A DNA stretch of 64,000 bases from Halalkalicoccus sp. CGA53 (GTDB taxonomy: Archaea; Halobacteriota; Halobacteria; Halobacteriales; Halalkalicoccaceae), in NCBI RefSeq assembly GCF_036429475.1, contig NZ_CP144125.1, positions 3,489,521-3,553,520 on the forward strand, given 5' to 3'. Positions 7,269 to 28,250 of this stretch are shown here, in pieces (the stretch's first letter is position 1; every line of letters starts with the position of its first letter). The notes beneath the pieces are model-generated. The model worked only from the letters and a program-made list of their open reading frames with translations, was not told where the DNA came from and ran no database searches. Both the position numbers and the translations under genes were made by a program.

Positions 7269-8714
7269 TCACTGGAGGTAGCCGAGGTCCTCGAGGCGGT
7301 CCTGTGTCGACTGCGTCATCGAGACCGAGCCCGACGCGTCGGCGTGCTCGAACGAGGAGAGCCACTCGTCGAGACGTGTTTCGAGGTCCGCAACCACCCC
7401 CGGTCGCTCCCCGGAGATCTCCTCCCGTTCCCCGGGGTCCGACGCGACGCGATAGAGTTCGCGCGCACCGTCGGAGCCACGGACGAGTTTGTACTCCCCG
7501 GAACGGATCGTCCGCAGCGATCGGTCGTACCGTTCGACCTCGGGGGAGATCTCACCGACGCGCTTTTCGAGCGCCTCCATCGACGGCTGTGGCGAGAGGT
7601 ACTCCGCGATGGCGTGCTCTCTCGGGTCGGCGTCGCCCCCCGGATGGAAGGACACGCCCTGAACCTCCTCTCGCATCCCCACCGCGTCGATTCCGGCCAC
7701 GTCGAGCAGTGTGGGTGCGAGGTCGGTGAGCTGGACGAGTCGGTCGTCTTCGCCCTCGTCGAACGACGGCCCGTGGACGAACAGCGGGACGTGCAACAGC
7801 GTGTCGTAGAGACAGTACTGGTGGTCCATCAGACCGTGGTCGCCGATGTTCTCGCCGTGATCGCCGGTGACGACGAAGACGGTGTCCTCCCACTCGCCGG
7901 CCGCCTCGAGCGACGTCCTCAACTCGTCGATGCGCTCTCCCAGATAGGCGAGTTCGGCGCGATAGAGCCCACGCAGTATATCGAACTCTCGCTCGCCCAT
8001 CTCGAGGTTCCCCGCGATGTATTCCCAGGCGTCCTGTGGGACCTCCATCGCCTCCTCGTAGCTCACGCCGTCGGGGAGGTACGCCTCGGCGATCTGTTTC
8101 TGGGGTCGGTACTCCAGGTGTGGCTCGAGGTAGTTGACGAAGAGGAAGAAGGGACGGGTGTCCGCTCGTTCCGTGAGCCAGTCGTCGATCCACTCGTTGG
8201 TCGCGCGCGCACCCTCGTCGCTGCGCCGTCGAAAGAACTGGCCGTAGACCGCGTTCGTGAGGTTCGTCAGCGGATTTCCCTCAAGGATCTTCTTCGCGAC
8301 GCCCCGGAGCTTTTCTGTACCTTCCTTCGTCCGGGCGATCTCGCCGAGGTCCGTCTCGGTCTGGACGTACTGCCAGGTCTTGTAGAAGGTCTCGAAGCCG
8401 CGGGCGAAACCGAACTCCTCGCTGATCCACGTGTTGTTCGAGACGCCGACCGTCTCGTAGCCCCCGTCGCCGAGTGCCTCCGCGAGCGTCGGGAGATTTC
8501 CCGAGAGGCGTTTGTGACCGCCGTGTGCGCCGTGTTTCGAGGAGTACGTCCCCGTGAAGAGCCCCGCATGGGACGGGAGCGTCCAGGGCGCGCTCGCGAA
8601 CGCGTTCGTGTAGCGTCGTCCCGCGATCGGAGGCTCGAGTGCTGCGTCGTTTCCGGGAGAGAAGACGTCCGCTCTGGCGGTGTCCATCACGATCAGGACG
8701 ATGTTGGAGGTCAT
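7269..8714 (-). CDS. Sulfatase-superfamily (alkaline phosphatase fold) hydrolase/transferase with Thr nucleophile
   Basis: This 481-residue protein of the arylsulfatase/phosphatase superfamily begins 'MTSNIVLIVMDTARAD', where D11 and the following residues bind metal. The nucleophile motif reads 'SAPWTLPSHAGLFTG': T45 takes the place of the Cys or Ser that becomes formylglycine in true sulfatases (C/S-x-P-S-R). A second metal site is in 'VFVVTGDHGENIGDHGLMDH' in the second half. A Thr in that place is normal in the phosphotransferase branch (LtaS, EptA), so the product may be a phosphodiesterase or a phosphoalcohol transferase rather than a sulfatase. No membrane segments or signal peptide are seen, so it is probably cytoplasmic. 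The ATG at 8714 is chosen; open sequence further upstream is not conserved-looking. It sits among glycosyltransferases, so a surface-glycan substrate is likely. Confidence 0.85.
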   Translation of the reverse strand: MTSNIVLIVMDTARADVFSPGNDAALEPPIAGRRYTNAFASAPWTLPSHAGLFTGTYSSKHGAHGGHKRLSGNLPTLAEALGDGGYETVGVSNNTWISEEFGFARGFETFYKTWQYVQTETDLGEIARTKEGTEKLRGVAKKILEGNPLTNLTNAVYGQFFRRRSDEGARATNEWIDDWLTERADTRPFFLFVNYLEPHLEYRPQKQIAEAYLPDGVSYEEAMEVPQDAWEYIAGNLEMGEREFDILRGLYRAELAYLGERIDELRTSLEAAGEWEDTVFVVTGDHGENIGDHGLMDHQYCLYDTLLHVPLFVHGPSFDEGEDDRLVQLTDLAPTLLDVAGIDAVGMREEVQGVSFHPGGDADPREHAIAEYLSPQPSMEALEKRVGEISPEVERYDRSLRTIRSGEYKLVRGSDGARELYRVASDPGEREEISGERPGVVADLETRLDEWLSSFEHADASGSVSMTQSTQDRLEDLGYLQ

Positions 8715-8844
8715 GACGAGGGGTGGGTTACTCTTGTCTGTCGTACACGAGCTGCAGTGAAGTATCCTCTCATTCCGGGAGCCCGACGCTCGATCGGGCG
8801 CCGGCGGTTCGGCGAACGCGAGAGAGTGAGCGTGCCAGCGAGCG

Positions 8845-9945
8845 TCACCCACGTTCGGCGAGCACCTCGTCGTAGAGCGCACGGTACTCCTCGACGCTCC
8901 GTTCGAGCGGGAACTCCGTCCGCGCCCGTTCGTCGGCGTCCCTGGCGCGTCGTTCGCGTCGTTCCGGGTCGCGCAGCAGCGTCCGGATCGCGGCCGCGAA
9001 CGACTCCGGGCTCCTCGAGTCGGCGAAGGCGGCGGTCTCACCGGCGACCTCGTGGAGTACCGGGATGTCACTGACGACGGGCGCGAGCCCACAGGCCATC
9101 GCCTCGACCAGCGCGACGCAGAACCCCTCGGAGTGGGAGCTGAGCGCGAAGAGGTCGCTCGCGTGGAGGATCCGATAGACGTCGAGACGGGAGACGGTGC
9201 CGGTGAACGTGACGTGGTCTCCGAGGCGGCGAGCCCGGACGAACCGTTCGAGCGCCGCTCGCTCGGGTCCGTCGCCGACGATCATCAGCTCCGCGTCGGG
9301 CACCGACCGCCTGACGTCGTCGAACGCCGCGATCAACGTTCGCTGGTTCTTCGTCGGGATCATCCGGCCGACGGTCGTCACCCGCGGGCGGTCGGTCTCC
9401 CACGGGTTCGACTCGGGGCGCGCGGCGTCGATGGCGTCGATGTCGACGCCGTTGTAGATCACGCGGCGCTTTCGCTCCGGGACCAGAAGTCGTTCGTGTG
9501 GGTAGAAGGAATCGAGCGTCGCCTGCGAGTTCGCGACGACGCGGTCGGCACGCCAGAGCGTCGTCGCGTTGACCGCGTTCTGGGCGGCGGAGTAGTGCAG
9601 CCGGTGATCGGCGTGTTCGGTGTCGACGATCGGGAGCTCGGAGGGCGCGAGCGCGCGTCCGAGCGCACCGGAGAAGTTCGTCTGGGTGTGCAGCAGGTCG
9701 AATCGACCGGCCGTGAGGAGTTCACGGAGCCGCCCGATCGCCGTCCGGTCGAATCGGTTCCTCGCCCCGAGGAACTCGAGGGAGACCGCGTCGGTGTCGA
9801 CGGGAGCTTCGGTCTCCTCGAGCGATGCGTCCTCGTAACAGGCGACCGTCACCTCGAAGCCGGGCTCCCGGCCGAGCCGTTCCGAGATGTCGTACTCGAT
9901 GGTCGTCGGCCGGATCCAGTTGAGGAGGACGAGTATATGAGACAT
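8845..9945 (-). CDS. GT4-family glycosyltransferase
   Basis: This 366-residue GT-B enzyme starts with 'MSHILVLLNWIRPTTIEYDISERL', a family 4 N-terminal domain. The donor-binding half contains 'RVTTVGRMIPTKNQRTLIAAF', 'MIVGDGPERAALERF' and the acidic Ex7E pair in 'EGFCVALVEAMACG'. These are the hallmarks of retaining glycosyltransferases that use NDP-sugars. It is transcribed in the same direction as the sulfatase-like gene, about 130 bp upstream of it, so both may share a transcript. It should add one sugar in the assembly of the surface polysaccharide on the cytoplasmic side of the membrane. Which sugar cannot be predicted. Confidence 0.88.
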   Translation of the reverse strand: MSHILVLLNWIRPTTIEYDISERLGREPGFEVTVACYEDASLEETEAPVDTDAVSLEFLGARNRFDRTAIGRLRELLTAGRFDLLHTQTNFSGALGRALAPSELPIVDTEHADHRLHYSAAQNAVNATTLWRADRVVANSQATLDSFYPHERLLVPERKRRVIYNGVDIDAIDAARPESNPWETDRPRVTTVGRMIPTKNQRTLIAAFDDVRRSVPDAELMIVGDGPERAALERFVRARRLGDHVTFTGTVSRLDVYRILHASDLFALSSHSEGFCVALVEAMACGLAPVVSDIPVLHEVAGETAAFADSRSPESFAAAIRTLLRDPERRERRARDADERARTEFPLERSVEEYRALYDEVLAERG

Positions 9946-10174: not shown

Positions 10175-11476
10175 ATGGGATACGTCCGGCAGAGCGCGGC
10201 GGCCGTCCCCCGCCCGAACGAGATCTGGATCCCGGTGCTCTGTATCCTCGCCGCCCTCACGACGAACACGTGGCTGCTCTCGTCGACCGTCGGATACGGA
10301 CTCTCGCTGGTCGCGCTGACGGTCGCGGGTGTCTACCTCGTCTTCGTCGCCGACGTCGAGGTTCGTATCGACCTCGTCTTCCTCGCGCTCTTCGGGGGCT
10401 ACTGGCTCGTCCTCACCGCCGGGTGGTTCGTCGATCGCTCGCTCGACCGGCTCGCGTACGTCCTCGTGACGCCGCTCGGCGTGATCGTCGCGATGTTCCT
10501 CCTCCCGGGGGTGATCGACCGCTCGGACGGGCGTCGCCGGCTCGTGACGACGCTCACCGCGATCGGGGTCCTCGTCGCGGCGATCGGCTTCGCGATGCTC
10601 GCCGTCGAGTCCGTTACCGACCTCGCGACGTTCCCCTGGACGGGCGGGAACGTCTACGGGTTCTCCGGCTACCGGACGAACTCGGTGTTCTCGAACCCGA
10701 ACACTTACGGCTTCTTCATGATGGTCTGCACGATCACGGCCGTCCTTCACGCGGTAGCGCGTGGCCCTCGCCCCCTCTCTCTGAGCGCGATCGTCCTCTG
10801 CTCGCTGGCGGTCCTGACGAGCGACTCCACCGGGGCGTTGCTCGGCCTCGGTGCGGGGACGGCGCTCGTCGCCGCGGTCGCGTTCAGGAAGACGGCGATC
10901 GCGGTCGTTTTCGCGGGCGCGCTGACCACGGGCGCGCTCGTCGTGACCGGCCTGCTCGGAACGGCGATCGAGGGCCTCCTCCCGGCCAGGGTCGTCGCGC
11001 TGATCGACCTGCTGATCTCCGTGCGGGGTACGCTCTGGATGGCGTCGATCGAGCGCCTCGCGGCCGACCCGCTCGTGGGGATCGGCTTCGGCGACACGGC
11101 GGCCGAGATCGCCCCCTACGTCCCCCCCGGTGGCCCGGTCGGCTACGGGACGCACAACTCCTACATCAACATCCTCCTCCAGACCGGGGTCGTCGCCGGC
11201 GCGCTCTACCTCACGGCCGTGTTCTACGCGGTCGGGGCGGTGATCGTGAGCGCCCTCAGGACGCGGTTCTCCCCGCGCGAGCGGGGCGACTGGTGGCCGG
11301 TCTACGTATCGGCGGTCCTCGTCGCGATCCTCGTGACCATGACCTTCGAGTCGATGACGCTCGGTGGGCTCTCGCTGAACTCCGTACTGCTCGCGATCTA
11401 CCTCGGCCTCGCGCTCTCGTACGGGGGCGCGAGGGTCGTCGAGATCAGACCGCGGGAGGTCCTCTCGACCGGATGA
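10175..11476 (+). CDS. O-antigen ligase/polymerase-like membrane protein (Wzy/WaaL type), copy 1
   Basis: This 433-residue polytopic membrane protein has about 10-12 hydrophobic helices. Between the last helices it carries the family signature: a large extracytoplasmic loop with 'RGTLWMASIERLAADPLVGIGFGDT' followed by 'GTHNSYINILLQTGVVAGALYL'. The pattern 'R...W..a.....p..G.G.......HN.yl..l...G..G' is typical of O-antigen ligases and polymerases (Wzy_C/PF04932). An earlier 'NSVFSNPNTYGFFMM' is also family-like. It should join undecaprenyl- or dolichyl-linked glycan units outside the membrane. Its stop codon overlaps the start of a second such gene by four bases (ATGA), so both are made together. 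Confidence 0.82.
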   Translation: MGYVRQSAAAVPRPNEIWIPVLCILAALTTNTWLLSSTVGYGLSLVALTVAGVYLVFVADVEVRIDLVFLALFGGYWLVLTAGWFVDRSLDRLAYVLVTPLGVIVAMFLLPGVIDRSDGRRRLVTTLTAIGVLVAAIGFAMLAVESVTDLATFPWTGGNVYGFSGYRTNSVFSNPNTYGFFMMVCTITAVLHAVARGPRPLSLSAIVLCSLAVLTSDSTGALLGLGAGTALVAAVAFRKTAIAVVFAGALTTGALVVTGLLGTAIEGLLPARVVALIDLLISVRGTLWMASIERLAADPLVGIGFGDTAAEIAPYVPPGGPVGYGTHNSYINILLQTGVVAGALYLTAVFYAVGAVIVSALRTRFSPRERGDWWPVYVSAVLVAILVTMTFESMTLGGLSLNSVLLAIYLGLALSYGGARVVEIRPREVLSTG

Positions 11477-12912: not shown

Positions 12913-14721
12913 TCACTGCGTCGCGTAGAGCTGTGCGTACTTCCCGTCGCCCTCGACGAGTTCGTCGTGCGGGCCGCTCTCGACGATCTCGCCCGCGTCG
13001 AGCGTGTAGATCCGGTCGGCGTTGCGGACCGTCGAGAGCCGGTGGGCGATGGCGATCATCGCGTAGCCCCGGTCCATCGATTCGATCGCCGACTGGACCT
13101 CCTCTTCGATGTTCGTGTCCAGGTCCGACGTCGCCTCGTCGAGGACGAGCAGGTCCGCGTCCTTCAACAGCGCGCGGGCGAGCGAGACGCGCTGGCGCTG
13201 ACCCCCGGAGAGCCGCACGCCGTTGTCCCCGAGGACCGTATCGTAGCCATCGGGTAGCTGCCCGACGTACTCGTCGATGTGTGCGAGTTCGCACGCCCGC
13301 TGGAACTCGCGCTCGGTGGCCGCCTCGTTGCCGATCATCACGTTCTCCCTGAGCGAGCGGTTGAAGATGAAGGGGTCCTGGCGGACGAACGCGATGCGTT
13401 CACGCCACTTGGTGAGGTCGATCTCCTCGATCGGCACCCCGTTGGCCGTGATCCGCCCGGAGTCGATCTCGTAGAGCCGCGCCAAAAGCGAGACGATCGT
13501 CGACTTCCCGGCCCCGGACTGGCCGACGAACGCGACGAACTCGTTCTCGTCGACCGAAAAGGAGACGTTCTTCAGGACCGGCTCTTCCTCCTCGCCGGTG
13601 TCGTAGGTGAACGAGACGTCCTCGAACCCGATCGGCGTCGGCGGGCGTGGGACCTCCCTCGTACCGGAGTCGAGTTCGGCCTGCGCCTCCAGTTCGCGGA
13701 CGAACTCCTGGGTGCGAATCAGGTGCGGGAGCCGCCCCTCGACCTTGTAGAACCGGTTGTTCGCCCGGCTGACGACGGGTGCCAGCTGGAACATCGCGAA
13801 GAGGAAGACGCCGAGCGCGCCCAGCGACATGTTCGCGAACGTGAGCGCGACATAGATCATCCCGAAGACTACGAGCGCCGCCGCGAGGTTGTAGAAGGCG
13901 TCGATCGCCTCCTCGTTCCGCCCGAGTTTGACGTAGGAGGTGACGAACTGGTCGATCGCCTCGTTGAACGTACCCAGGACGTCGTCGCCCTTCGTGTAGA
14001 GCTTGACGTCCCGGATCCCCTGCGTGGCCGCCTGTGCGGACTCCTGGATCCGCTCGTTCGCGTCCGCAACCCGATCACCCAGCGTGTAGCCCGGTTCGAG
14101 GACGTATCTGATGAGGTACGTCAGCCCCCCGAGGAGGACGAGCGCGAGCACCGTCAGCTGTGGGGCGAGGTAGAAGGCGACGGCGAGGTACATCACCCCC
14201 AGGAGCACCTGTTCGAAGAACTGGATGAAGTCCCGGATCACCTTCCCGGCGTACTCGGCCTGGGTGACGATCGCGTTCATGATGTCGTCGGAGCCGTGCT
14301 GGTCGAAGTACGCGATCCGCGCGTCGACCGACCGCTCGATCGACAGCGTCTGGAGGTGTCGCATGTACTCCGTGTAGAGCGCGATCCGTAGCCAGCCGAC
14401 CATGAACGTCGCGGTGTAGCGCGCGGTCATCACCAGCGCGAGGCCGAGGACGATGTAGCCCAGCGTGAACGGGACGCCGACCGTGTCGTAGGCCATCGCG
14501 AACGCCCCGACGAGACCACCTTCTGCGGTCGGGTCGTCCGGTGTCTGAACCACCTCGATGATCGGCATGAGGAAGCTCAGCCCGACCCCCTGGAGGAGGG
14601 CGGCGAGCGCACTGAACGCGATGATGAACGCCGTCAGGACGGGTTTGAACATCGCGACGCGCCAGAACGCACGCGCCTTCTCGCGGAGAGAGAGGTCCTC
14701 CGTCTCCCGATCCGGTTCCAT
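12913..14721 (-). CDS. ABC exporter with fused membrane and ATPase domains (MsbA/PglK-like candidate flippase)
   Basis: This 602-residue half-transporter has an N-terminal six-helix transmembrane domain (about residues 25-330) followed by an ATPase domain. Walker A 'GQSGAGKST' lies near residue 399-407, the signature 'LSGGQRQR' near 503, Walker B 'LLVLDEATSDLD' near 521 and the His-switch in 'IAIAHRLSTV' shortly after. The protein should form a homodimer and export an amphipathic substrate. Among glycan loci this architecture occurs in MsbA and PglK, which flip lipid A or lipid-linked oligosaccharides. No Wzx/MATE-type flippase is present in the locus, so this protein is the best candidate for moving the lipid-linked glycan across the membrane. 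The start at 14721 is plausible and the N-terminus is charged. Confidence 0.88.
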   Translation of the reverse strand: MEPDRETEDLSLREKARAFWRVAMFKPVLTAFIIAFSALAALLQGVGLSFLMPIIEVVQTPDDPTAEGGLVGAFAMAYDTVGVPFTLGYIVLGLALVMTARYTATFMVGWLRIALYTEYMRHLQTLSIERSVDARIAYFDQHGSDDIMNAIVTQAEYAGKVIRDFIQFFEQVLLGVMYLAVAFYLAPQLTVLALVLLGGLTYLIRYVLEPGYTLGDRVADANERIQESAQAATQGIRDVKLYTKGDDVLGTFNEAIDQFVTSYVKLGRNEEAIDAFYNLAAALVVFGMIYVALTFANMSLGALGVFLFAMFQLAPVVSRANNRFYKVEGRLPHLIRTQEFVRELEAQAELDSGTREVPRPPTPIGFEDVSFTYDTGEEEEPVLKNVSFSVDENEFVAFVGQSGAGKSTIVSLLARLYEIDSGRITANGVPIEEIDLTKWRERIAFVRQDPFIFNRSLRENVMIGNEAATEREFQRACELAHIDEYVGQLPDGYDTVLGDNGVRLSGGQRQRVSLARALLKDADLLVLDEATSDLDTNIEEEVQSAIESMDRGYAMIAIAHRLSTVRNADRIYTLDAGEIVESGPHDELVEGDGKYAQLYATQ

Positions 14722-22787: not shown

Positions 22788-23729
22788 GTGAGCAACGCAG
22801 ACGGGTCGAGCGAACCGACGCTCTCGGTGGTGATCCCGGTCTACAACGACCCGGCGGGGATGAGGCTGACCCTGGAGTCGGTGACGGAACAGACCTATCC
22901 CACAGAGCGCTACGAGGTGCTCGCCGTCGACAACGGGAGCACCGACGGGACTCCCGAGGTGATCCGGGCATTCTCTTCGTTCTACGATAACGTCCACCTG
23001 CTCGTCGAGGACGAGGTCCAGGGCTCGTACGCCGCCCGCAACGAAGGGATCGAACACGCACGCGGGGAGGTCGTATCGTTCGTCGACGCGGATATGACCG
23101 TCGAGGAAAACTGGGCCGAGTCGGTCCTCGACTCCTACGATCGACACGGCTGGGACTACATGGGCTGTCCGGTCGAACTCTATGTAGAAGGAGAGGAGAC
23201 GCTCACCGCGACCTACGACCGGACGCTCGGCGGGTTCCCCGTCGAACGGTACATGCGAGAGCGCGAGTTCACCGGAACGGGCAGCCTCTCGATCCGACGC
23301 GAGGTGTTCGATTCTGTCGGAACCTTCGACGAGCGGATCGTCTCGCAGGGCGACGGCGAGTTCGGAAAGCGCGTCGCCGAGGCAGGCTTCGTCCAGCACT
23401 TCGAGCCGACAATCACGATGTACCACGCGGCGCGGACGGATCTGCGCGCGTGGCTCGGAAAGCAGGTCCGGATCGGACGCGGGGCGATCCAGAAGCAGGT
23501 CTACTATCCCGATCGGACGGAAGCGGCCGAACGCGCCCATCCCCTTCACCCGCGGAAGTTCCTCCCCCCGAAACCGTGGGGCTTCTACCGACGGCTCACC
23601 GACGAGACGGATCCGAGTCCCGGAGAGGTGGGCGGGCTCTACGCGATCGACTACGCGAGCAAACTCGCCCGGACCGCCGGCGGGATCGCCGAGTGGATCG
23701 AACGGTCCCGAAGCGGGGAGTGGAACTAG
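22788..23729 (+). CDS. GT2-family glycosyltransferase
   Basis: This 313-residue GT-A enzyme starts (GTG at 22788) with 'LSVVIPVYNDPAGMRLTLESV', the classic family 2 opening. 'VLAVDNGSTDGTPEVI' holds the first Asp, and 'VVSFVDADMTVEENWAESVL' the DxD metal site. 'GTGSLSIRREVFDSVGTFDE' is the acceptor-side segment. The last 70 residues run to 'YAIDYASKLARTAGGIAEWIE'. It should transfer a sugar from a UDP/GDP-sugar to a lipid-linked acceptor. A TATA-like 'gggtttagaa' stands about 30 bp upstream, which suits a leaderless message. A deacetylase gene follows nine bases later and a nucleotidyltransferase further on, so it starts a plus-strand run. Confidence 0.88.
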   Translation: MSNADGSSEPTLSVVIPVYNDPAGMRLTLESVTEQTYPTERYEVLAVDNGSTDGTPEVIRAFSSFYDNVHLLVEDEVQGSYAARNEGIEHARGEVVSFVDADMTVEENWAESVLDSYDRHGWDYMGCPVELYVEGEETLTATYDRTLGGFPVERYMREREFTGTGSLSIRREVFDSVGTFDERIVSQGDGEFGKRVAEAGFVQHFEPTITMYHAARTDLRAWLGKQVRIGRGAIQKQVYYPDRTEAAERAHPLHPRKFLPPKPWGFYRRLTDETDPSPGEVGGLYAIDYASKLARTAGGIAEWIERSRSGEWN

Positions 23730-23738
23730 GGGGCAGCC

Positions 23739-24494
23739 GTGATACGAGAGGGCGTGAAGCGAGGACTGCGGGAACTCGGGCGGACAGGGCTCTACCAGCG
23801 GCTTCCGGACAGCCACAACACCGTCCTTGCCTATCACTCGGTCGGTGGCGGTGGGTACGACGACATCCCTCCAGAACGGCTCGGAGCGCAGCTCGAGTGG
23901 CTCACTGCGACCTACGAGGTCGTCGACCTTCCCGCAGTCCTGGAGCGAGGCGATCGAAAGCGGATCGCGCTCACGTTCGACGACGCGCTCCGGTCGTTCC
24001 AGGAGAACGTGGTTCCACTGCTTCGCGAGTACGACGTCCCGGCCACCGTCTTCGCCATCGGGGGGTCGGTGACCGACCCGCCGGGGCTGGATTCGATCCG
24101 GGGTGAACCGCTCATGACGGCAGAACAGCTGCGAGCGGTCGCCGACGACCCGCTCGTGACCGTCGGCTCGCACACGATGACCCACGTCCCGCTCTCGGAG
24201 ATCACCGACGAAGCGGAGTTACACGAGGAGATCACCGGCGGGACCGAACGCGTCGAGTCCGCCGTCGGAGTCGGGATCGACCGGTTCAGTTACCCGTTCT
24301 ACGAGTGGTCGGCGGAGGCCAGAGAGGTCGTGGCGGAACGCCACGAGTACGCCGTCAGGGGGGAGGGATCACACGCGCTCATCGGGGAGGACACCGATCC
24401 GTACCTCGTCCCCCGAATAAACGGCGCCGTCCCCCTCTCGACGCTCAGGTTCACCGTCTCGGACGCGAAGAAACACCTCACGCGGCTCTCGTAA
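23739..24494 (+). CDS. NodB-type polysaccharide deacetylase
   Basis: This 251-residue protein has the NodB homology domain of carbohydrate esterase family 4. Motif 1 is 'ALTFDDALRSF' with D81 and D82 (TFDDG in most members; here DDA). Motif 2 is 'VGSHTMTHVPLS' with H145 and H149 (H-x3-H), which binds zinc with the first Asp. 'YPFYEWS' and 'PYLVPRINGA' cover the other active-site strands. The enzyme should remove an N- or O-acetyl group from a sugar of the surface glycan. No signal peptide is seen, so the reaction is probably cytoplasmic or at the membrane on the lipid-linked unit. A GTG start sits nine bases after the GT2 stop, which makes an operon very likely. Confidence 0.85.
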   Translation: MIREGVKRGLRELGRTGLYQRLPDSHNTVLAYHSVGGGGYDDIPPERLGAQLEWLTATYEVVDLPAVLERGDRKRIALTFDDALRSFQENVVPLLREYDVPATVFAIGGSVTDPPGLDSIRGEPLMTAEQLRAVADDPLVTVGSHTMTHVPLSEITDEAELHEEITGGTERVESAVGVGIDRFSYPFYEWSAEAREVVAERHEYAVRGEGSHALIGEDTDPYLVPRINGAVPLSTLRFTVSDAKKHLTRLS

Positions 24495-24937: not shown

Positions 24938-25702
24938 ATGAACGACGACCGACGAGCGATCGTCCTCGCGGCGGGGCAGGGAAAGCGACTCCAGCCGCTC
25001 ACCGACGAGACGCCGAAGACGCTTCTCGACGTGGGGAGCCAGTCGATCCTCGATCACATCCTCGACAGCCTCGAAGCCAACGGCTACGAGGAGGCCGTCG
25101 TCGTGACGGGCTTCGGGCGCGAACAGGTCGAAGCTCACTGCGACGCCCGCGAGGGCATCGGGATCGAGTTCGTCCACAACGCCGACTACGACACGACGAA
25201 CAACATCTACTCGCTCTGGCTCGCCCGCGAGTACGCCGAAGGCGGGTTCACCCTCATCAACGCGGACACCCTCTTCCCCGCGAGCAGTCTCGAGAAGCTG
25301 TGTGCAGCCGAGGGGAGCGCGCTGCTCGTCGACACCGAGCAGGACCTCGACGACGAGGAGATGCAGGTCGCCTTCGGTTCCGACCACATCGAAACCATCG
25401 GGAAGAACCTGGATAGTGAGAACCGAGAAACAGGTGTCTACCTCGAGGACGGCGACGGGGAGTACATCGGCGTCTCGCGCTTTACCGCCGAGGATACGAC
25501 GCTCCTGTTCGGGCACATCGAGGAGTTCGTCGAGCGCGGGGCCGTGACGGACTGGTACGAGGCGGCGTTCGACCGGCTCTTCGACGAGCGCGAGATCGGT
25601 TACGTCGAGGTCGACGACACCTGGATGGAGATCGACACGCCCGAGGACCTCGAACGGGCGCGCACCCGATGGCCCGAGGCGCACGTCGAGCAGTCGCTGT
25701 GA
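24938..25702 (+). CDS. Sugar/alcohol-phosphate nucleotidyltransferase, LicC-like
   Basis: This 254-residue nucleotidyltransferase has the opening 'AIVLAAGQGKRLQPLTDETPK' (G-x-G-x-R plus the lysine K27 that contacts the nucleotide). The fingerprint 'DYDTTNNIYSLWLA' is what sets apart choline-phosphate cytidylyltransferase LicC and inositol-phosphate cytidylyltransferases from ordinary RmlA-type enzymes. 'LINADTLFPASSLEKL' holds the metal-binding Asp, and 'VDDTWMEIDTPEDLERA' closes the site. It should join CTP (or another NTP) with a phosphorylated alcohol to give CDP-X. Its stop overlaps the GTG of the next gene by four bases (GTGA), a TagF-like phosphotransferase that would use CDP-X. The exact alcohol is unknown. 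Confidence 0.85.
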   Translation: MNDDRRAIVLAAGQGKRLQPLTDETPKTLLDVGSQSILDHILDSLEANGYEEAVVVTGFGREQVEAHCDAREGIGIEFVHNADYDTTNNIYSLWLAREYAEGGFTLINADTLFPASSLEKLCAAEGSALLVDTEQDLDDEEMQVAFGSDHIETIGKNLDSENRETGVYLEDGDGEYIGVSRFTAEDTTLLFGHIEEFVERGAVTDWYEAAFDRLFDEREIGYVEVDDTWMEIDTPEDLERARTRWPEAHVEQSL

Positions 25703-26880
25703 TCCGGCGGGGCGTCCGGGGTGTCTTGGCGACAGTCCTGTTCGCCCTCTCGCTGGTCAGTCCTCGCGATGACTCACTGTGGGTCTTCGGCTCGAACGGC
25801 GGCGACGCCTTTCGCGACAACGCGAAGTACCTCTACCTGCACGCCGCCGACGAGCGCGAGCACGTCAGGGCGGTGTGGCTCTCGCGGAACGAGGAGGTCA
25901 TCGAGCGACTCCGATCGAGCGGATACGAGGCGTACCACGTCGACTCCCTCCGTGGGATCCGGGCGAACCTCCGTGCGGGGTACGTCTTCGTGACGCACGG
26001 CATGCCGGACGTGAACCGGTGGTGTTCCGGTGGAGCGACGAAAGTCCTGCTCTGGCACGGCGTCGCGCTGAAACGGATCGGCTGGGACGCACCGAAACTC
26101 CGACACCGGAGAGAGCGTCTGAAGCGGGTGATGAAGGACACGCTCTTCGACCGCTACGACTGGATCACGGTACCGTCGGAGGCGATGGTCGGACCGTTCG
26201 CCTCCGCGTTCCGGATCGGAGAGGACAGGGTGCTCACGACCGGCTACCCGCGAAACGACGTGCCGGCGGGGACGTGGACGGGTGCGGACCCGACGAGGGA
26301 GGTGGAACTCGAACGGCGCTATCGCGCGTACCACGAGGAGGGACCGGTGGTCCTCTACATGCCGACGATCCACCGCGAGACGGGAGAGAGCATCGTCGAT
26401 CATCTCGACCTCGACGCGTTCGATCAGTGGCTCGCCGAGCGGGACGCCCGTCTGCTGTTCAAACCGCACCCCGCCGAACCGATCGACCTCGGTGGAGGGT
26501 TCTCCAGGATCGAGGAGGTGCCCGAGGGCGTCGACGTCTATCCGCTGCTCGAGTACGCCGACGTGGTGCTCACCGACTACTCGTCGGTCTACTTCGACTT
26601 CCTCCTACTCGACCGGCCGGTCGTCTTCTACCCGTTCGATCTCTTAGGGTACCGGGAGGAACGCGGGTTCTATCCCGAGTACGAGGCGGTGACGCCCGGG
26701 CCAGTAGCGACGACGTTCGCGGGCCTCCTCGACCGACTGGACGACGTACTCGAGACCGACGAGTACGCCGCCGATCGCACGGCAGTTCGCGAGGAGTTCC
26801 TGTGGACCGGGCCCGGGAGCCGGTGTCGATCGGTCGGCGACCGGTTCGACCCGCGTGCCGATACGTCGGGGGGGAGGTGA
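25699..26880 (+). CDS. CDP-glycerol glycerophosphotransferase-family protein (TagB/TagF-like)
   Basis: This 393-residue protein has the order of motifs typical of PF04464: 'DSLWVFGSNGGDAFRDNAKYL', 'VFVTHGMPDVNRWCSGGATKV', 'LLWHGVALKRIGWDAPKL', 'LYMPTIHRETGES', 'LLFKPHPAEP' and 'VVLTDYSSVYFDFLLLDRPV', followed by 'VFYPFDL'. The histidines in the WHG and KPH boxes bind the phosphates. In bacteria these enzymes transfer glycerol- or ribitol-phosphate from CDP-alcohols to teichoic-acid chains at the inner face of the membrane. Here the partner next door is a LicC-like cytidylyltransferase, joined by a GTGA overlap that fixes the start at 25699. The pair suggests a phosphodiester-linked surface polymer; no archaeal product is known to me. 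The first 25 residues could be a membrane-associating segment. Confidence 0.86.
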   Translation: MIRRGVRGVLATVLFALSLVSPRDDSLWVFGSNGGDAFRDNAKYLYLHAADEREHVRAVWLSRNEEVIERLRSSGYEAYHVDSLRGIRANLRAGYVFVTHGMPDVNRWCSGGATKVLLWHGVALKRIGWDAPKLRHRRERLKRVMKDTLFDRYDWITVPSEAMVGPFASAFRIGEDRVLTTGYPRNDVPAGTWTGADPTREVELERRYRAYHEEGPVVLYMPTIHRETGESIVDHLDLDAFDQWLAERDARLLFKPHPAEPIDLGGGFSRIEEVPEGVDVYPLLEYADVVLTDYSSVYFDFLLLDRPVVFYPFDLLGYREERGFYPEYEAVTPGPVATTFAGLLDRLDDVLETDEYAADRTAVREEFLWTGPGSRCRSVGDRFDPRADTSGGR

Positions 26881-26987: not shown

Positions 26988-28250
26988 GTGAGCGCTCACT
27001 CCCACCTCCGACGGGTCTCTGGCCACCTCGGGAGTTTCGAGGTGGTGTTCGCGCTCTTTCTCTTCTCCGGCGTCTACAAGGCTTCGCCGCGGCTCGCGTG
27101 GGTGCCGATCGACCTGACGGCGATGCTCGCGGCCGTGAGCCTCCTCCTCTCCGTCGGCCTGCTCGCCCGGGGACGCGTCGAGGTTCGCCCCGGTTCACTG
27201 GCCCTGGTCGCGCTGTTCGGGGGCTTTCTCGTCTACGCGCTCCTCTCCGTCCTCTGGACGCCGAGCGAGATCTACGTGCGAGAGAAGGCGTTCAGGCTCG
27301 CCAGCGTCACGACGTTCTCGCTGCTCGGCTGTGCGCTCGTCGTGGCCCAGGACCGGGTTCGACTGTGGCGTTTTCTCGCCGTCTCGCTCGCGCTGGCCGT
27401 CGTGACGGCGGTGGCGACGGTCTACCCGGTCGTCCTCTACGGACCCGTGCGGGTCGAGCCGTTCGGGACGACGTACCTCATCCTCGGCCGGATGATCGGC
27501 TTCGGCGCGGTCGTCGCCGCCTGCTACCTCCTGTTCGTCTCCCCGTCGACCCCCCGATCTATCGCGGCGACCGCCGTCCTCGGGTTTCTCGGCGCCGGTC
27601 TGGTCCTGCTCGACGGACGGGGGCCGCTGGCGGCCACCGTGCTCACGATCGGGGCGCTCGCCGTCGCGGCGTTCCCGCTCGCCTCGCTTCACCGGAGACC
27701 CGAACGCCTCCTCCCGAGCCTCGCTGCCGGCGGCATCGTCGCCGCCGCGACCGTCGTCTACGGCGAGTCGCTCCGCGTCACCGAGAAGTTCCGGGCGACG
27801 TTCAGCGACGATCCCGACCCGGCGACGACCGGACGGCTGGAGAACTGGGAGTTCGCGCTCGAGACCTGGCTCTCGGGTCGGACGGTCACCGGTCACGGGC
27901 TTGCGAGCTGGGGCCCGCTCAACGATCAGGTCGTTCGCTGGCCGCACAACGTCGTCCTGGAACTCCTCGTCGAACTGGGGGTGGTCGGCCTCGTCCTCTT
28001 CTCGCTTCCGGTCGTGATCGGCCTCTCGCTCGCGATCCTCGGCTACCGGGAGACACGCGAGCCGGAGTGTGTGGTCGTCCTCGCGCTCTTCTGCTACACG
28101 TTCCTCAACGCACAGGTGACCGGCGACTTCAACGAGAACCGCTTTCTCTTCGCCGCGATCGGACTGCTCTGTTACGGTGCGTACGCGAGGGGATCCGAAC
28201 CGGTGACGGTCGACCGACTCGTCGATCGAGCCCGGCGCCTCCTCGGGTGA
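26988..28250 (+). CDS. O-antigen ligase/polymerase-like membrane protein, copy 3
   Basis: This 420-residue polytopic protein has about 11 hydrophobic helices (for example 'FEVVFALFLFSGVYKAS', 'LVALFGGFLVYALLSVLW'). The Wzy_C-like loop is present: 'GRLENWEFALETWLSGRTVTGHG' and 'VRWPHNVVLELLVELGVVGLVLF', where 'HN..LE.L.E.G..G' is the signature. It is only moderately like copies 1 and 2. It should polymerise or ligate lipid-linked glycans at the outer face. A GTG start at 26988 lies behind a TATA-like box. It comes right after the TagF-like gene but with a promoter of its own. Having three such proteins within 18 kb suggests more than one glycan or a separate ligase step. Confidence 0.8.
   Translation: MSAHSHLRRVSGHLGSFEVVFALFLFSGVYKASPRLAWVPIDLTAMLAAVSLLLSVGLLARGRVEVRPGSLALVALFGGFLVYALLSVLWTPSEIYVREKAFRLASVTTFSLLGCALVVAQDRVRLWRFLAVSLALAVVTAVATVYPVVLYGPVRVEPFGTTYLILGRMIGFGAVVAACYLLFVSPSTPRSIAATAVLGFLGAGLVLLDGRGPLAATVLTIGALAVAAFPLASLHRRPERLLPSLAAGGIVAAATVVYGESLRVTEKFRATFSDDPDPATTGRLENWEFALETWLSGRTVTGHGLASWGPLNDQVVRWPHNVVLELLVELGVVGLVLFSLPVVIGLSLAILGYRETREPECVVVLALFCYTFLNAQVTGDFNENRFLFAAIGLLCYGAYARGSEPVTVDRLVDRARRLLG

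Follow-up and report, generated by a model that had tools for sequence, protein, structure and literature searches.

The haloarchaeal cell surface is usually described as an S-layer glycoprotein accompanied by sulfated or uronic-acid-rich polysaccharides. Two adjacent genes in Halalkalicoccus sp. CGA53, one encoding a LicC-like nucleotidyltransferase and the other a TagF-like transferase, raise the question of whether CDP-activated phospho-alcohols are made and attached to this surface as well, and, if so, which alcohol and which acceptor are involved. The genes lie in a stretch of 64,000 nucleotides, called the window below. Gene calls are based on open reading frames, and the G+C content of the pair is ordinary relative to the window. 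An earlier note had described two coupled reading frames with diagnostic motifs, and their coordinates, motifs and junction were all confirmed (Table 1): the 254-aa LicC-like protein contains TTNNIYSL at residues 86–93, the 393-aa TagF-like protein carries LWHGVALKRIG, FKPHP and LTDYSSVYFDFL, and the two genes meet at CTGTGATCCG, which yields the overlap.

Table 1. The gene pair, its key residues and its neighbours (positions are those of the window)
Feature	Positions	Strand	Basis or remark
Predicted LicC/COG1213-type CTP:phospho-alcohol cytidylyltransferase, 254 aa, ATG start	24938..25702	+	Pfam NTP_transf_3, PDB profile, AlphaFold/Foldseek
Predicted TagF-like (PF04464) CDP-polyol-dependent polyolphosphotransferase, 393 aa, GTG start	25699..26880	+	Pfam, AlphaFold/Foldseek
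GTGA, stop of LicC-like gene and start of TagF-like gene	25699..25702	+	Also in L061 and L081
TNNIYSLW, codons 87-94 of LicC-like gene	25196..25219	+	T87, N89, S92 invariant in 99 relatives
NAD, codons 108-110 of LicC-like gene (N108, acceptor-pocket position; D110, presumed Mg ligand)	25259..25267	+	
His120 of TagF-like protein, equivalent of S. epidermidis TagF catalytic His444	26056..26058	+	Alignment; invariant in 19 rows including bacteria
His257 in KPHP of TagF-like protein, second conserved TagF-like His	26467..26469	+	Alignment; invariant
DYSS motif of TagF-like protein, residues 293-296	26575..26586	+	D293, S295, S296 invariant
GT2 glycosyltransferase, conserved companion 5' of the pair	22788..23729	+	Pfam; homologue upstream in L061, L062, L063, L081, L084
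Polysaccharide deacetylase-like protein	23739..24494	+	Pfam PF01522; syntenic in L081
Wzy_C/O-antigen-ligase-like membrane protein, directly 3' of the pair	26988..28250	+	Pfam PF04932; syntenic in L081, 80% identity

The first protein is a member of the MobA/NTP-transferase family (Pfam NTP_transf_3, 52 bits at a cut-off of 27). When it was searched as a single sequence, LicC (1jyk) ranked at the top (E 2.4e-15), followed by inositol-1-phosphate (4jd0) and aminoethylphosphonate (AEP; 6pd1) enzymes. A 23-row profile compared with the PDB gave full-length matches to LicC (125 bits) and PntC (115 bits), while inositol-1-phosphate enzymes reached 70–85 bits and sugar-1-phosphate enzymes (mannose-1-phosphate, MurU and others) at most 65 bits, mostly over partial length; the proposed placement in the LicC-like cytidylyltransferase clade is thereby supported. 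The AlphaFold model (pLDDT 91) found PntC, LicC and IMPCT as its best Foldseek matches. VIA-align Z-scores did not separate CTP:phospho-alcohol from sugar-1-phosphate enzymes, GalU and RmlA also scoring high, and for this reason the profile scores were used instead. As for TTNNIYSL, which had been read as a fingerprint of LicC and inositol-phosphate enzymes, the motif is present, but TNNxYSL is common to the whole COG1213-type clade regardless of the partner gene, and is not a fingerprint of LicC alone.

R17, K27, T87, N89, S92 and D110 are invariant among 99 relatives, and T87, N89 and S92 correspond, in a mapping by residue spacing only, to T88, N90 and T93 of CpgD, which contact CTP and its ribose (PMC13228409). 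CTP is the predicted donor, in agreement with these contact positions. The acceptor-alcohol site is occupied in solved structures by D105 of LicC, E104 of Tde-PntC and N110 of CpgD (PMC13228409), and at the equivalent residue 108 each of the 26 haloarchaeal rows has Asn, whereas each of the 36 bacterial rows with a LicD or TagF-like partner has Asp or Glu; GlpA-linked archaeal enzymes, with Asp at this position, are an exception to the Asn rule. Asn108 would argue against a cationic amino-alcohol and is no proof of glycerol. Elsewhere in the protein, Glu208 matches D192 of LicC and E196 of PntC.

These data bear on the reading in which the LicC-like protein acts as a sugar-1-phosphate nucleotidyltransferase and its partner moves hexose-1-phosphate from a nucleotide sugar, as in poly(oligosaccharide phosphate) capsules. 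Such a function is very unlikely: the general NTP-transferase fold, the high Z-scores to GalU and RmlA and the weak NCBIfam matches to archaeal GlmU and AglF, under cut-off, are compatible with it, and TagF-like domains have hexose phosphate from UDP-sugars within their repertoire (PMC5974469), but the full-length LicC and PntC scores exceed those of the sugar enzymes, the CTP-contact positions are as in CpgD, and the neighbours of the relatives use CDP donors or make glycerol phosphate.

The second protein belongs to the TagF/CDP-glycerol glycerophosphotransferase family, as had been proposed, with both catalytic histidines in place (PF04464, Glyphos_transf; 215.5 bits against a cut-off of 22.1, E 1.4e-63, profile positions 3–348 of 367). 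Over its entire length it can be aligned with the catalytic domain of TagF (E 1.5e-25), H120 falling on the WHG histidine (H444) and H257 on the second conserved TagF histidine, and both, together with D293, S295 and S296, are invariant across 19 TagF-like rows, bacteria included. Its AlphaFold model (pLDDT 87.6) has the TagF GT-B fold: Foldseek placed TagF 3l7j first (E 6.9e-27, TM 0.76), then TarL, Bcs3 and Cps3D, and these four rank far over other GT-B proteins. A hydrophobic helix is found at the N-terminus (residues 2–20). The NCBIfam equivalog scores remained under cut-off (TarF 106.6 against 550, TarL 72.3 against 1000, TarB 56.8 against 500); with scores so far below these cut-offs and a single domain of 393 aa, the protein may equally well polymerise or carry out a primase-like or decorating transfer, and, as far as the sequence can tell, side-group decoration appears at least as likely as a polymer.

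In the window, the genes for GT2, polysaccharide deacetylase, LicC-like, TagF-like and Wzy-like proteins follow one another in one direction, and within 20 kb of the pair there are GT61, more glycosyltransferases, a second Wzy-like gene, an ABC exporter and a sulfatase. L081, from a Halococcaceae metagenome-assembled genome, keeps the core gene order at 67–84% identity. The locus fits a surface polysaccharide locus, and phosphoglycerol on the repeat unit is the simplest reading; the GT2, deacetylase, Wzy-like and ABC-exporter neighbours suggest that this repeat unit is the acceptor. One glycan region of about 25 kb thus holds an ABC exporter together with a pair of Wzy_C-like proteins (10175–11476, 12913–14721 and 26988–28250).

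The sulfatase at 7269–9092 on the minus strand, which the earlier note had suggested could add or remove the phospho-alcohol groups, is a real, arylsulfatase-like member of PF00884 in which Thr (WTLPSH) replaces the catalytic Cys/Ser; its match to LtaS is weak. It was set aside as a partner of the pair, as no conserved linkage between them was seen. Small sulfatase/PglZ-like proteins, several with a DACRYD motif, occur near the pair in L062, L063, L067 and L071, and a homologous group of this kind is present in eight of 20 neighbourhoods.

The pair recurs among 391 Halobacteria genomes, for which weaker homologues were considered among the matches listed. The best 16 LicC-like matches (at least 46% identity, one being that of the window) all lie 31–124 bp from a TagF match, 15 of them upstream and one downstream, which means adjacent homologous pairs in 15 more haloarchaeal genomes, with the same order in 14. 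Of the 56 full-length haloarchaeal PF04464 matches listed, 39 are accompanied by a LicC-like gene in the same orientation and at most 3 kb away. The pair is under purifying selection, with pN/pS values of 0.23–0.39 between the window's pair and two relatives. The haloarchaeal LicC proteins that stand alone make up a single clade (SH-aLRT 100), both of whose large subclades reappear in the TagF tree, so that the pair has been inherited as a unit; both trees are quick searches without bootstrap, and one TagF row (L003_G226x, branch 7.65, probably a misread frame) was disregarded. The joint function that had been proposed for the two proteins is upheld by this adjacency in the best 16 homologues and by the shared subclades, and their translational coupling is supported as well. 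The nesting of G047, from another family, with the window and L081 suggests a transfer from one haloarchaeal family to another. The module is found in several families, including the cultured genera Halovivax, Halostella, Halocatena and Natronococcus. The TagF family search gave no match in the control genome of Haloferax volcanii, and the module may have been overlooked for this reason.

Not every pair of this form, here called type A, lies in a glycan locus. In L069 and L072 it stands apart from obvious glycan genes, amid housekeeping genes, so the acceptor there may be general, either a lipid or a common glycan. A membrane lipid acceptor, giving an archaeal head group that bears phosphoglycerol, would share its chemistry with transfer to a surface glycan and differ from it in the acceptor. 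We regard it as improbable: these two loci and the pairing of LicC-like genes with CDP-alcohol phosphotransferases in other archaea speak for it, but GT2, GT61, Wzy and deacetylase genes flank the pair in the window's own subclade, and characterised TagF enzymes have glycan or polymer acceptors.

The identity of the alcohol is suggested by more distant relatives. A second haloarchaeal form, type B, is present in 23 genomes (L076–L080 and 18 more, e.g. G250, G149, G373, G159 and G056), in all of which the LicC-like domain, 33–39% identical to that of the window, is fused to a phosphatase domain of the HAD-IIA type, which has glycerol-phosphate phosphatases among its relatives. In 22 of the 23, the exception being G265, a gene for a glycerophosphodiester phosphodiesterase (GDPD, PF03009) adjoins or separates the TagF gene and the fusion. 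GDPD enzymes free glycerol phosphate from glycerophosphodiesters, and their presence in the cluster points to glycerol. A xylose-isomerase-like TIM-barrel gene stands beside the type B cluster in three of the five loci read.

Outside Halobacteria, TagF-like, LicC-like and GpsA-like genes occur together in two archaea of one genus (G603 and G481; L180:5192-8662 and L182:4646-7937). Since archaeal lipids are built on glycerol-1-phosphate and GpsA is unusual in archaea, its presence is telling. The genomes G432 and G409 have a LicC-like gene that overlaps the gene of a short (373 aa) GlpA-like FAD glycerol-3-phosphate dehydrogenase (L183:4754-6630; L184:5884-7762), and a TagF gene lies no more than about 3 kb away. 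These GpsA- or GlpA-linked LicC-like enzymes are about 26–30% identical to that of the window. In many archaeal genomes (family code f15), the LicC-like gene is instead paired with a CDP-alcohol phosphotransferase. An operon for an amino-alcohol lipid head group is possible at L179:5436-8189, and similarly in L177: the LicC-like protein there has Glu as its acceptor residue, and its gene is followed by those of a PLP enzyme of the CobD/HisC kind and of a CDP-alcohol phosphotransferase resembling archaetidylserine synthase.

Most bacterial homologues have LicD, CDP-alcohol phosphotransferase or PF04464 genes in their neighbourhood; those with PF04464 number at least 11 loci, including those of soda-lake Balneolaceae. 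The acceptor residue of TagF-linked bacterial enzymes is Asp or Glu, and is Glu in the LicC–TagF pairs of L107, L113 and L123 (Balneolaceae and another Bacteroidota-related bacterium), and in L107 the pair has a 4-base ATGA overlap. Such pairing is not unique to haloarchaea.

Gene content was profiled in the 16 pair-bearing genomes. Glycerol kinase is present in 14, GDPD in 14 and HAD-IIA in 11; where glycerol kinase is absent (G071 and G101), glycerol-1-phosphate is the more likely substrate, if the substrate is a glycerol phosphate. TagD over the TIGR01518 cut-off is found in none of the 16, all matches being weak and not counted as TagD, and these genomes have no other evident maker of CDP-glycerol. 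Inositol phosphate is disfavoured as a general substrate by residue 108 and by myo-inositol-1-phosphate synthase, which is present in four genomes and missing in 12, G000 among the latter (the H. volcanii control was positive). Phosphocholine is disfavoured because choline kinase (LicA, PF01633) occurs in none of the 16 and Asn stands where LicC has Asp105. Aminoethylphosphonate is disfavoured by residue 108 and the PEP-mutase profile: matches to this family are unspecific because the E. coli and B. subtilis controls match too, and strong ones are missing in five pair-bearing genomes.

Decoration of the LicC type with phosphocholine, phosphoethanolamine or aminoethylphosphonate is hence a remote prospect. 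Among solved structures, LicC and PntC come nearest, and Glu208 has its counterparts in both, but these gaps in choline kinase and PEP mutase, Asn108 in place of Asp or Glu, and a TagF-like partner instead of LicD stand against it. Somewhat less doubtful, although still unlikely, is that the same module handles another phospho-alcohol, such as phosphoglycerate, ribitol or erythritol phosphate, or another polyol phosphate. COG1213 substrates are diverse (choline phosphate, AEP, inositol-1-phosphate, phosphoglutamine and 2-phosphoglycerate), CpgD, the 2-phosphoglycerate enzyme, has the same Asn at the acceptor position, and the closest folds of the TagF-like model include TarL (CDP-ribitol by its PDB title) and Bcs3, whose donor we take to be CDP-ribitol; GDPD, GpsA and GlpA beside the relatives nevertheless favour glycerol phosphate.

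The evidence on enzyme families and gene coupling is strong. That the pair transfers a CDP-activated phospho-alcohol is likely, and that this alcohol is glycerol is moderately likely. We favour, with some reserve, the reading of the pair as a two-enzyme phosphopolyol module, in which the LicC-like enzyme would most likely make CDP-glycerol and the TagF-like enzyme would hand phosphoglycerol to a surface acceptor. In the first step, the LicC-like enzyme, taking the place of the unrelated bacterial TagD, would react CTP with a polyol phosphate, most probably that of glycerol, to give CDP-glycerol and pyrophosphate. The substrate would be either sn-glycerol-1-phosphate, which to our knowledge is present in every archaeon, or sn-glycerol-3-phosphate made by glycerol kinase. 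In the second, the TagF-like enzyme, probably anchored to the membrane by its N-terminal helix and with His120 and His257 as its presumed catalytic pair, would move phosphoglycerol from CDP-glycerol onto a hydroxyl group carried by a lipid-linked glycan or by another surface acceptor, releasing CMP. Type A loci, that of the window included, have no GDPD, HAD or glycerol-phosphate dehydrogenase gene alongside, so the assignment of glycerol is carried over from the relatives. In a bolder and rather doubtful version, haloarchaea would make a genuine teichoic-acid-like poly(glycosyl-glycerol phosphate), perhaps built on sn-glycerol-1-phosphate. Its CDP-glycerol would come from an enzyme of LicC fold with no relation to TagD, and in type B the phosphodiesterase of the operon would recycle glycerol phosphate.

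Each half of the module resembles known systems. TagF, TarF and TarL have the same PF04464 domain, fold and catalytic histidines, whereas the archaeal protein is a single domain, 26% identical to TagF, with neither a TagD partner nor a wall peptidoglycan acceptor. LicC of S. pneumoniae, a CTP:phosphocholine enzyme, shares the COG1213-type fold, the catalytic Arg/Lys/Asp and NNxYSL, but identity is about 23%, Asp105 corresponds to Asn108, and the archaeal pair has no LicA and a TagF-like protein in place of LicD. In the pneumococcal glycerol-2-phosphate capsule, likened here by description and not by sequence, dedicated activation genes and a separate transferase put phosphoglycerol on a Wzy-type surface polysaccharide. 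The names of its genes, gtp1-3 and wchX, are given in PMC6332807. The capsule polymerases Cps3D and Bcs3 also use a TagF-like domain to put polyol phosphate into a surface polymer, but contain fused glycosyltransferase domains, and those that use CDP-glycerol rely on TagD-type synthesis (PMC8262930, PMC5974469). R16, K26, T88, N90, T93, N110 and D112 of CpgD, the CTP:phosphoglycerate enzyme of Caulobacter, correspond by spacing only to R17, K27, T87, N89, S92, N108 and D110 here; CpgD differs in serving a sphingolipid head group and in having no TagF-like partner. An archaeal precedent is Archaeoglobus Af2299, in which a related cytidylyltransferase-like domain is coupled to a CDP-alcohol phosphotransferase that binds CDP-glycerol as donor (PMC4634129), though as a fusion with a membrane partner that is not TagF-like.

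What is new is the TagD-independent arrangement in archaea; the families themselves were known before. No description of a haloarchaeal teichoic-acid-like polymer was found in the open-access literature, which is no proof of absence. If the proposed reading is true, phosphodiester-linked polyols would join the known components of the haloarchaeal surface, a second fold would be established for CDP-glycerol synthesis, and the handedness of glycerol phosphate on archaeal surfaces would become a question in its own right.
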